NCBI GenBank assembly: GCA_029262235.1
Contig: JAJCZU010000004.1
Coordinates: 897,330-961,329, forward strand
Source of the DNA: Candidatus Eiseniibacteriota bacterium
GTDB lineage: Bacteria; Orphanbacterota; Orphanbacteria; Orphanbacterales; Orphanbacteraceae
DNA: 64,000 bases
Direction: 5' to 3'
Shown: positions 9,030 through 51,766 of the stretch, piece after piece
How positions within the stretch are numbered: position 1 is the first letter of the stretch
Layout: every line of letters begins with the position of its first letter
Notes under the pieces: generated by a model
Databases searched by the model: none
What the model was told of the DNA's origin: nothing
What the model saw: the letters and a program-made list of their open reading frames with translations, nothing else
Translations under genes and position numbers: made by a program

Positions 9030-9480
9030 GATCATGATCCTTCATTGTTAAACGGACAGCCCCCGTTCATGCATGAAGTATACACTCTGTTCTTCCGGGC
9101 TCGACAGAGCCTCGACGAGACGAAGAAGTCAGTCTGCTGAATGCCGAGATCAAAAACTGAGTATTGTGATCGTCAGCCACGCAGAGCGCGCGCTGAGTTC
9201 GTTTCCCGCGTGGAGCACGGTCACCGTAAATTTGTGCTGGAAGAATTGTGTCAATGCATTTCTTGAAAAATAGTGCTACTGGCACGACGACAAAGAACAA
9301 AGTGGGGGTCAGTTCATATTCGGAACCGCACCGCACACCGACACGCCCGGCCCCCGCACTTGGCATTTGGCCGGGAAGCGCTGACGAAGGGGAGCACAAG
9401 CGGCCCGGACCACAAACGATCCACCTCACGGTGGTTCTCCGCAGCAAAAAGTTCTACACTCTGCATGTAAGGAGAATGCC
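9030..9480. other. Intergenic region with repeat remnants
   Basis: No credible gene lies here; the open frames have no family resemblance and poor codon use. The region is more AT-rich than its neighbours up to about 9320. It holds a segment at about 9298-9330 (AAAGTGGGGGTCAGTTCATA) that resembles sequence commonly found beside REP-associated or decayed transposase loci, a stretch at 9352-9372 that reads on the minus strand as GGCCAAATGCCAAGTGCGG and resembles the core of the palindromic element described near 44-52 kb, and a 30-base segment (9389-9418) that recurs at 15193-15222. The ribosome site of sufE (AAGGAGA) is at its right end. Confidence 0.5.
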
Positions 9481-15114: not shown

Positions 15115-15224
15115 AACGTATGCAATCCGGGCCGCGATGGGCTTCCCGCAGGCGTGCGAGGAACGGCCGTTACGCCACGACGAGCGCGCCGAGGGGAGTC
15201 CAAGCGGCCCGGACTACATACGTT
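15115..15224. repeat. 110-base inverted repeat with 21-base arms
   Basis: Left arm 15115-15135 and the reverse complement of right arm 15204-15224 agree at 19 of 21 positions (AACGTATG, then TCCGGGCCGC around two transitions). The spacer is 68 bases. The right arm is part of a 30-base segment found again at 9389-9418. It lies just downstream of the M3-like peptidase gene and could act as its transcript end, but no U-run follows. Confidence 0.75.
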
Positions 15225-15231
15225 CCGACCC

Positions 15232-42422: not shown

Positions 42423-44438
42423 TCACTCCACCGCGAACAGCGCCACGCGATCGTCTTCATAGTACGGCGCCCCGCACCACTCCTCGAGCACGCGCCGGTA
42501 CTGCTGCATGCGGTTGTGCGGGATGGAGCCCGTCACGGTCGTGTACTTCCAGTACCATTGCCCGCCGTCGGATTCTTCCGGCCACGTCATCCCGGGCGGC
42601 GCGTGCCGCGTTTCATTCGCGTCGAAATCCTTGTGCAGCACGATGTCGCCGATCCCGAGCGCCGCAAATCGCGCGCGCGGATCCATGGCGGGCGGCGGGC
42701 CGAGGCGCAGGTCCTTGCCCTTCTCGGTAATCCATTCGAAGAACTCACCTTCTTCGCGAATCTTCCCGAATGTCGGCGGCGGAATCGAAACGTACCCCGA
42801 AACGAGCGGGCGTTCGTGCAGCGTCTGGTACCACATGTAAATCGTGGCCTGCGATCCGAGAAAGAGCGGCACGTCGAGAACGGCGCCCGTGTGCTTGCGC
42901 GCCAGCAATCGATCGGTCCACGCGGGCGTCCCCCATGGCATCGTCGAGATCGGCGGCGGGCAGTATTCGAATACGAGCACGGCCGCGAGCGCGACTGCTC
43001 CCGCGCGCGGGGCAAGCCCGGAGCGTCGCCAGAGCGCGGCGAAGCCGGCTGCAACGAGCGGCGCGAGAAACAGAATCGCGGGGATCAGAAAGCGGTTCGG
43101 CACGCGCAGAAAACGGAGCACCGGAATCTGCTGCAGAATCGCGTACGGAAGAGGAACGCCCGTCTCTTCGCCGATCGAAAACTGCAGTTTCGGCCCGAGC
43201 GCCAGAATCAGGAACCCGGTCCCCATCACGAAAAAGAAGCGTCGCTCGAACCGAGTGAAGCCGCGTGCGGGCGCGCCGTCGTTCGGTGGCGCACCTGGCT
43301 TCTCGCGCATCACGAGCCCGAGCACCGCGAGCGCCACCATCGCGAAACCGAGATACGCCGTTGCGCCGCGCGGGAGATGCTCGTAGTCCGGATTCCCCGC
43401 GCGCACGCGTTCCCCGAACACGGGGTGGAAGACGCTCGGCGAGACAATCGTTTCGATGCTGGCCGAGTGATTCGGCCGGATCGTCTTGTACTGAAACGCG
43501 CCGCTCTCGCCACGCGCCGCAAGCGCCGGCAGCAGAATCGGCGCGATCAGTATCAAAAACAGCCCGATATGACGCACGTACATCGCGAAGAGATGAGCTC
43601 GGGAAGGCGAGGCTCCTGATTCCCCTCGCCCCTCGTCCTGGCTCGACGGCCAATGGGCCTCGGGGCTCGGGGAACCCGGATCCTCGCCCTTTCCGGGCTC
43701 CGGACCCGCGCTTTCGAGGGCAGGCGTCGGGGTCTCTCCGGGCCCGCTCGGCCTCCGTAGTTGGCCAGTTTGGCCAGGACGAGCGGGTCCGGAGAGGCCT
43801 CGACGTCTGCCACCAAGAATCAGCACCACGAGCGAGCTAAGAATCAGCGCGTGCATCATGTACGTCCAGCACGCGTAGGTTTGGATCGCGAGAAAGACGG
43901 ACGCAATGATCACCTGCTTGATTGACGGCGCTCGCACGAGCCGTATCAGCGCGAGCAGATAGAACGGCAGAAACTGATGCGACGTCAGGTTCAGGTGTGA
44001 ATAGATCTGGTCGAGATGATGGGGAAAAAACGCGTAGGCGAAGCCGGCCAGAAACGCGGCGCCGCGATGATTCGTGAGCTCCATTGCAAGCAGATACATG
44101 CCCCACGCGGCGAGCGGAAACGCGAGAAAGAGCGCAAGGCCGAGAAGCGTGACCGGCGAGAGATGTCCGAACGGCACGGCCCAGATCGTGTTCGCGAGCG
44201 AAAGCGTATGAAACGAGAGATCCGCGCCCCACGGATGCAGCAGGTCCATCGTGTAGAACGGCGTGCGCCCGAGTTCGGTGATCGCCTTTTTCACCCACCA
44301 GAAATTCCAGAGATTCTGAAACGTGTCGACGCGCGGCCCGGGGAGAGCGCGACCGATTTGCGCGCTGAACGGCAGAAGCACCACGAAGGAGAGGGCTGAA
44401 TAGAAGAGAGGGACGAGGCGATCGAAACGGCGCATCAT
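42423..44438 (-). CDS. GT-C-like / YfhO-like polytopic membrane protein carrying an in-frame double palindromic insert
   Basis: The 671-residue protein begins with a membrane helix (LVPLFYSALSFVVLLPFSA) and the loop LPGPRVDTFQNLWNFWWVKKAI, then about ten further helices and a soluble C-terminal domain (LDVPLFLGSQATIYMWYQTLHERPLVSGY) as in other bacterial sugar-transfer or YfhO-like membrane proteins. Residues ~205-280 (Gly/Pro/Ser/Glu-rich, GLSGPARPGQTGQLRRPSG and EAHWPSSQDEGRGES) interrupt the hydrophobic core; at DNA level they consist of two palindromic elements in opposite orientation, described separately. The frame is intact across both. The start ATG 44438 (or 44435) lies just left of a third copy. 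Enzyme activity is not established. Confidence 0.75.
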   Translation of the reverse strand: MMRRFDRLVPLFYSALSFVVLLPFSAQIGRALPGPRVDTFQNLWNFWWVKKAITELGRTPFYTMDLLHPWGADLSFHTLSLANTIWAVPFGHLSPVTLLGLALFLAFPLAAWGMYLLAMELTNHRGAAFLAGFAYAFFPHHLDQIYSHLNLTSHQFLPFYLLALIRLVRAPSIKQVIIASVFLAIQTYACWTYMMHALILSSLVVLILGGRRRGLSGPARPGQTGQLRRPSGPGETPTPALESAGPEPGKGEDPGSPSPEAHWPSSQDEGRGESGASPSRAHLFAMYVRHIGLFLILIAPILLPALAARGESGAFQYKTIRPNHSASIETIVSPSVFHPVFGERVRAGNPDYEHLPRGATAYLGFAMVALAVLGLVMREKPGAPPNDGAPARGFTRFERRFFFVMGTGFLILALGPKLQFSIGEETGVPLPYAILQQIPVLRFLRVPNRFLIPAILFLAPLVAAGFAALWRRSGLAPRAGAVALAAVLVFEYCPPPISTMPWGTPAWTDRLLARKHTGAVLDVPLFLGSQATIYMWYQTLHERPLVSGYVSIPPPTFGKIREEGEFFEWITEKGKDLRLGPPPAMDPRARFAALGIGDIVLHKDFDANETRHAPPGMTWPEESDGGQWYWKYTTVTGSIPHNRMQQYRRVLEEWCGAPYYEDDRVALFAVE
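43606..43688 (+). repeat. Palindromic element, copy C (inside a coding gene)
   Basis: Arms GGCGAGG (43606-43612) and CCTCGCC (43682-43688) bound an imperfect palindrome whose left half matches the reverse complement of its right half over about 25 positions (GGCGAGG, TCC, TTCCCC, GCCCC in common). The core carries CTGG and GGCCAATGGGCC, a degenerate form of the tip seen in the other copies. It reads through in frame in the membrane-protein gene on the opposite strand. Confidence 0.75.
43719..43811 (-). repeat. Palindromic element, copy D (inside a coding gene, opposite orientation)
   Basis: Left arm from 43719 (GGCAGGCGTCGGGG, CTCTCCGG) pairs with the right arm ending at 43811 (CGACGTCTGCC). 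On the minus strand its core reads CCCGCTCGTCCTGGCCAAAC, then TGGCCAACTACGGAGG, close to copy A (CCCGCTCGGCTGGCCAAATG). It is only 30 bases from copy C and also stays in frame with the host gene. Confidence 0.75.
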
Positions 44439-44451
44439 GCGGTCGCCTGGT

Positions 44452-44573
44452 CGGTCGGATCGGGAATGTCGGACTCGGAACCGGATTCCCTCCGCCCCTC
44501 GGTCTGGCCAAATGGCCACCGCGGAGACCTCGGGGCTCCGGGAATCGGTTCCGTCGTCCGACTCGCCCGACCG
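44452..44573 (+). repeat. Palindromic element, copy B (intergenic)
   Basis: Outer ends CGGTCGG (44452-44458) and CCGACCG (44567-44573) are complementary, as are GTCGGAC and GTCCGAC, and GGAACCG with CGGTTCC, further in. The tip is TGGCCAAATGGCCA at 44505-44518, flanked by CCCCTCGG and CCTCGGGG. It occupies most of the gap between the aminotransferase stop and the start of the membrane-protein gene and may affect transcription between them. Confidence 0.85.
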
Positions 44574-44601
44574 ATGATGGGGAAGCGGGAGTTCTCCACT
44601 A

Positions 44602-51635: not shown

Positions 51636-51766
51636 AGAACGGAGCAGAGCAGGAGAAGAACCCGTTACGTATTCCCTCGACCCGCTCGGCTGGCCAAATG
51701 GCCAAGTACGGAGCCTCGCGGGATCCGGGAACACGCAACGGGTTCTTTCTCTGCCCTGTTTCGTTT
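51636..51766 (+). repeat. Palindromic element, copy A (intergenic)
   Basis: The 36-base left arm (51641-51676) matches the reverse complement of the right arm (51727-51762) at 28 of 36 positions, and all eight differences are A/G transitions. The inner region forms a second stem and the tip TGGCCAAATGGCCA is at 51691-51704. It sits between two convergent genes (the barrel gene and GT4), so it could terminate both transcripts. Confidence 0.88.

Follow-up and report, generated by a model that had tools for sequence, protein, structure and literature searches.

The window analysed here, a stretch of 64,000 nucleotides at positions 897330-961329 of its contig, comes from a genome of 4.47 Mb that is 95.5% complete. 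On its reverse strand lies a gene for a multi-pass membrane protein (42423-44438), recognised from its open frame and translation and from orthologues in the genomes G001, G002, G003 and G005; searches of Pfam and NCBIfam with the 671-residue protein gave no matches. As a preliminary description of this DNA had stated, the frame runs uninterrupted for 671 codons, from the ATG at 44438 to the stop at 42423, and passes through two palindromic hairpins whose positions and opposite orientations were recovered by covariance-model matches. Hairpin C spans 43596-43699 on the forward strand with a conserved core at 43613-43682 (model R2, 78.9 bits; DNA fold z = -2.95), and its outer arms are complementary, scoring 11.5 where the arms of other copies average 7.8. 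Hairpin D spans 43718-43812 on the reverse strand with a conserved core at 43732-43799 (model R1, 78.3 bits; DNA fold z = -10.5). Folded as DNA, none of 200 dinucleotide shuffles of either hairpin folded as well as the real sequence. The two had been taken for copies of one element 30 bases apart; instead they are members of two related families, and they are separated by about 19 bases when measured between hairpin ends and by 49 bases when measured between cores.

Other hairpins lie elsewhere in the window. A third occupies the short gap upstream of the membrane-protein gene (44449-44584, forward strand, core 44482-44547; 61 bits with R1, 51.8 bits with R2, z = -4.61), and in the alignment it is likewise missing from G001. 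An intergenic D-type copy, site 36 of our catalogue, lies at 51669-51733 on the forward strand (R1, 70.3 bits), its outer arms reaching past these coordinates, and a weak, probably degenerate D-like copy is intergenic at 9332-9396 on the reverse strand (R1, 25.8 bits). Two divergent, related intergenic hairpins of the CCGGGCCGCTTG... type, probably old copies, were also seen at 9319-9432 and 15121-15228.

The segment inserted into the membrane-protein gene consists of the two hairpins and the short spacer between them (43606-43802, reverse strand; roughly residues 214-277), and it is missing from the G001 DNA and from all orthologous proteins. At the orthologous locus of G001, C and D are both missing while the DNA to either side of them aligns, and the encoded protein, 91% identical, has 618 amino acids against 671 here. 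An alignment of orthologues, which had been proposed as a check, covered the same genus (G001) and three sister genera, and it placed a clean gap at the palindromes in all of them: G001, G002, G003 and G005 carry a short loop in place of the G/P/S/E-rich stretch, and so do homologues that are more distant. An insertion is thus borne out, although its expected size of about 70 residues was too large, the net gain over the G001 orthologue being 53 residues and the alignment gap 59. The predicted structure of the membrane protein is of low confidence (mean pLDDT 43), too poor for placing the loop.

In-frame copies were found at four sites in three genes, the three sites beyond the membrane-protein gene lying in a gene for an M6-peptidase-like protein and, twice, in one for a DnaE-type polymerase. 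At site 10, two C copies lie near the N-terminus of the M6-like protein, which is of T9SS type; in G001 the first is missing and the position of the second holds divergent sequence. Sites 3 and 4 both fall within a single DnaE-type gene of 1440 codons, where the two inserts total more than 300 residues, and neither insert is present in the versions of this paralogue (64-73% identical) encoded by four sister genomes. Since the own genome has another DnaE gene of normal length (open frame, 1162 residues), the interrupted gene is an additional copy that we call DnaE2-like, its exact type not being proven; its translation contains PDLDIDI and KIDLLG, which we take to be catalytic-site motifs. The peptide encoded by C recurs as SPEAHWPSSQDEGRGESG in the membrane protein, SPEPHWPSSQREGRRESG in the M6-like protein and SPEPHWPVRQGEGRRGSG in DnaE, being read in identical orientation and frame in the three genes, while the two D readings in DnaE share a frame that differs from the one used in the membrane-protein gene. 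The likeness once drawn between the C and D peptides of the membrane protein is weak, and it is the C peptide, present in three proteins, that recurs. Several G001 sequences (on C756, C26, C193 and others), some in long open frames, resemble residues 1089-1172 of the second DnaE insert, and in that sister species, too, a repeat of a different type may be carried in frame.

It could be argued that the membrane-protein gene is a pseudogene, or that its open frame is a chance product of high G+C, and the consensus frames of the repeats are indeed mostly open: in any given frame 69-97% of copies lack a stop, so that an open frame alone is not evidence of coding. The evidence for coding, as read from the sequences, lies instead in the frame-preserving length of the inserts, low dN/dS and intact flanks. 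At each of the four in-gene sites the insert has a length that keeps the frame, the reading runs without a stop through the 671 codons of the membrane-protein gene and through at least 628 and 1440 codons of the other two hosts, and both ends of the membrane protein align to its orthologues. Outside the inserts, purifying selection on the host genes continues (dN/dS 0.09-0.19), with values of 0.087 for the membrane protein and 0.107 for the M6-like protein, each against G001, and 0.187 for DnaE against G005. Decay or chance is on this evidence very improbable as an account of the gene.

Within the own genome, the C-D segment has matches at 46 places. The catalogue of copies rests on searches of seven genomes of the phylum with two covariance models, R1 for D and R2 for C, each built from an alignment of its type; after hits were merged, it listed about 93 copies for the own genome, spread over 60 sites, and 21 of the 60 carried at least two, oriented alike or oppositely, an organisation like that of REP/BIME. 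The same search found about 7 copies in the sister species G001, the one same-genus genome compared and a draft that is 82% complete in 830 contigs, and no convincing copies in five other genomes of the phylum (G002-G006), a borderline match of R1 in G003 (E = 0.007) showing no hairpin of such kind. The exact core pattern occurs at 27 sites in the own genome, at none in six other members of the phylum and at none in the reversed control; a scan of 84,980 species, the own genome left out, gave a single, unrelated match in Streptomyces, and two scans of viral contigs found nothing. Few copies are common to the two species even though the flanking genes are common, and many of the intergenic sites are, in comparison with G001, rearranged rather than cleanly empty, so that gain and loss are not readable at each of them. 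Two arrays of five D copies are arranged alike, their elements running D+ D+ D- D- D- (G000 C7:123721-124515 and C8:381181-381949), and a D pair that closes one contig (G000 C3:631728-631948) has a near-identical counterpart opening a different contig (C6:81-299), which probably reflects an assembly break at the repeat.

Each copy consists of a conserved tip of about 66 nt set on an outer stem whose sequence is locus-specific yet complementary. Within the core, 11 of 19 base pairs of D and 7 of 23 of C have changed on both sides, figures equalled in none of 500 shuffles for either. Roughly 20-40 bp of further stem lie beyond the core, where almost every locus has a sequence of its own, and arms from the same locus pair with a mean score of 11.8 against 6.3 for arms from different loci, 67 of the 93 copies lying above the 95th percentile of cross-locus pairing. 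Among 32 D copies with non-redundant arms, some 18 positions have column pairs that are complementary well above shuffled arms. Sub-families have parts of their outer arms in common, and it therefore seems that the arms diverged stepwise with pairing kept, whether by selection on the hairpin or by template-switch correction. A search of Rfam gave no family at threshold, all matches being sub-threshold and microRNA-shaped, and a known RNA family was rejected as the identity of the hairpins.

Further hairpin types were observed alongside C and D. A third type has a core of about 110 nt (CCCTGTCG...CCTCCAATGGGGCTC) on stems that are equally locus-specific (L114-L132 in G001, L153-L156 in the own genome), and the C type resembles a truncated version of it. 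A fourth type (GGGTCCTGTCGCGC...GGCGCGCCACCC) has short locus-specific arms (L003, L106 and L148 in the own genome; L112, L157, L167 and L176 in G001), and sites 12, 29 and 54 carry this fourth type in G001 and D or C in the own genome, as if tips had been exchanged.

We interpret these repeats as non-autonomous, REP/RPE/MITE-like mobile hairpins that multiplied mainly in this species and of which a few, lying within genes, are tolerated, a reading to which we give a probability of about 0.82. The hairpin would be spread by machinery acting in trans, and under a selective filter copies would persist downstream of genes and, in rare cases, within protein loops. Copies within genes may be kept where the length of the insert preserves the frame, helped by a core with few stops in any frame; the peptide, rich in G, P, S, E and R, would then be translated, probably as a flexible loop that the protein tolerates, and the insert would be close to neutral. 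A RAYT (Y1) transposase was rejected as the mobiliser: the 95.5% complete genome has no match to PF01797, while 5 of 14 control genomes do. Across the sites, no clear or consistent target-site duplication was found; at site 32 (L030, around 1430-1640) the inserted segment lies just past a stop codon between TSD-like GCTCGC flanks, which other sites lack.

The hairpins might instead be primarily functional RNA or DNA elements, such as terminators or mRNA stabilisers, whose structure is under selection and whose in-gene copies are by-products. Copies lie mostly at the 3' ends of genes: 24 sites are convergent, 23 co-directional and 7 divergent intergenic, as classified with a simple codon-usage gene caller that misfiled a few in-gene sites (for example site 3 as divergent and site 10 as co-directional). 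The preference for convergent over divergent regions (24 against 7) suits such a function, as do the covariation of the outer stems in the 32 non-redundant D copies, far above that of shuffled arms, and the conservation of the core in the face of an interspecies synonymous divergence of about 0.55-0.63. Avoidance of promoters alone, however, would produce the same 3'-end bias, the hairpins fall into no Rfam family at threshold, and hardly any copies are common with the sister species though the flanking genes are, which is not as expected for conserved regulatory elements. We regard selected function as the primary nature of the hairpins as rather unlikely; a role in termination or mRNA stabilisation for the intergenic copies, judged from their placement, is possible.

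A different account concerns the stems, which might arise by snap-back synthesis, the host flank being copied back in inverted form when a core inserts. It would explain why stems are locus-specific yet complementary in 67 of 93 copies, and at site 14 the host flank in G001 does show complementarity to the arm on the other side (p = 0.0007), albeit partly through low complexity. At nearly all other single-copy sites, however, complementarity between G001 flank and arm was no better than for random sequence; site 54 does score (p = 0.005), though the arms there are those of a different hairpin that G001 already carries, and the outer arms usually start within the inserted segment. For the in-gene copies, where the idea initially looked appealing, tests on the arms alone gave mixed results, and at multi-copy sites the flank test compared arms across the whole group and is uninformative there. 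Copying of host flank as a general source of stems is thus mostly unsupported, the G001-flank test having failed at most sites, and we hold the snap-back account to be improbable. Insertion into pre-existing palindromes was also rejected, since the G001 flanks at empty sites are mostly not palindromic.

Among known systems, the Rickettsia palindromic elements (RPE) are hairpins of about 100-150 bp, found between and within genes, where they are in frame and encode tolerated peptide inserts (PMC2229807, PMC10969869). The mobile hairpins described here are like them in being dispersed, in-frame hairpins in conserved genes, at four sites in three genes whose orthologues lack the inserts; they differ in being G+C-rich, conserved in sequence at the tip only and set on locus-specific, covarying stems, in an unrelated and lineage-restricted host. 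The comparison with RPE is one of description, not of sequence, and we do not claim membership. GTAG/CGTC REPs are numerous and often paired, are found for the most part at 3' ends, where neighbouring genes converge or run in the same direction, and in several lineages are intragenic, with genes of replication and repair, DnaE2 among them, as hosts (PMC3733652); their published 3'-end pattern agrees with the site contexts found here. Cores of about 66 nt on long stems nevertheless differ from REPs of 20-40 bp, the aligned cores have no GTAG end and the genome no Y1 (RAYT) transposase, and the end tag, 8-9 bp stem and CCA-like tail of CGTC-type REPs were not found, CGTC occurring in part of the copies only (CTCGTCC alternating with CTCGACC and CTCGGCC) and inside the hairpin. 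ERIC, Correia/NEMIS and YPAL are MITE-like stem-loop repeats of 100-170 bp whose open frames are sometimes fused to genes (PMC2229807); most have fixed terminal inverted repeats and TSDs, whereas the outer arms here vary between almost all loci. In Volvox mtDNA, hairpins have spread and lie nested within each other (PMC2670323), and palindromes of Nematomorpha show concerted change of both arms within coding sequence (PMC6649704); both belong to organelle genomes and differ in sequence, and the Nematomorpha repeats are conserved coding sequence, not inserts.

In-frame palindromes have therefore been published before, and the premise of the preliminary description that they are established for Rickettsia only is outdated, because intragenic REPs (PMC3733652) and gene fusions of ERIC, Correia and YPAL (PMC2229807) had already been described. 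Its suggestion that a lineage other than Rickettsia carries dispersed palindromes in frame is supported, and what differs here is the large hairpin of conserved tip and variable stem, the host lineage, and the absence of a RAYT. These features might even mark a class of mobile DNA whose hairpins are recognised by shape, with only the tip conserved in sequence, long stems free to co-change and spread independent of RAYT, a generalisation that we offer tentatively and consider less probable than its opposite. The finding adds a distant lineage to those in which selfish hairpins get written into proteins, and it independently repeats the reported tendency of such repeats to lie within genes of replication and repair like DnaE2 (PMC3733652), one of two DnaE-type genes being interrupted and the other of usual length. 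With a design of conserved tip and variable stem, and with the REP transposase missing, the mode of spread of these hairpins becomes a testable question.
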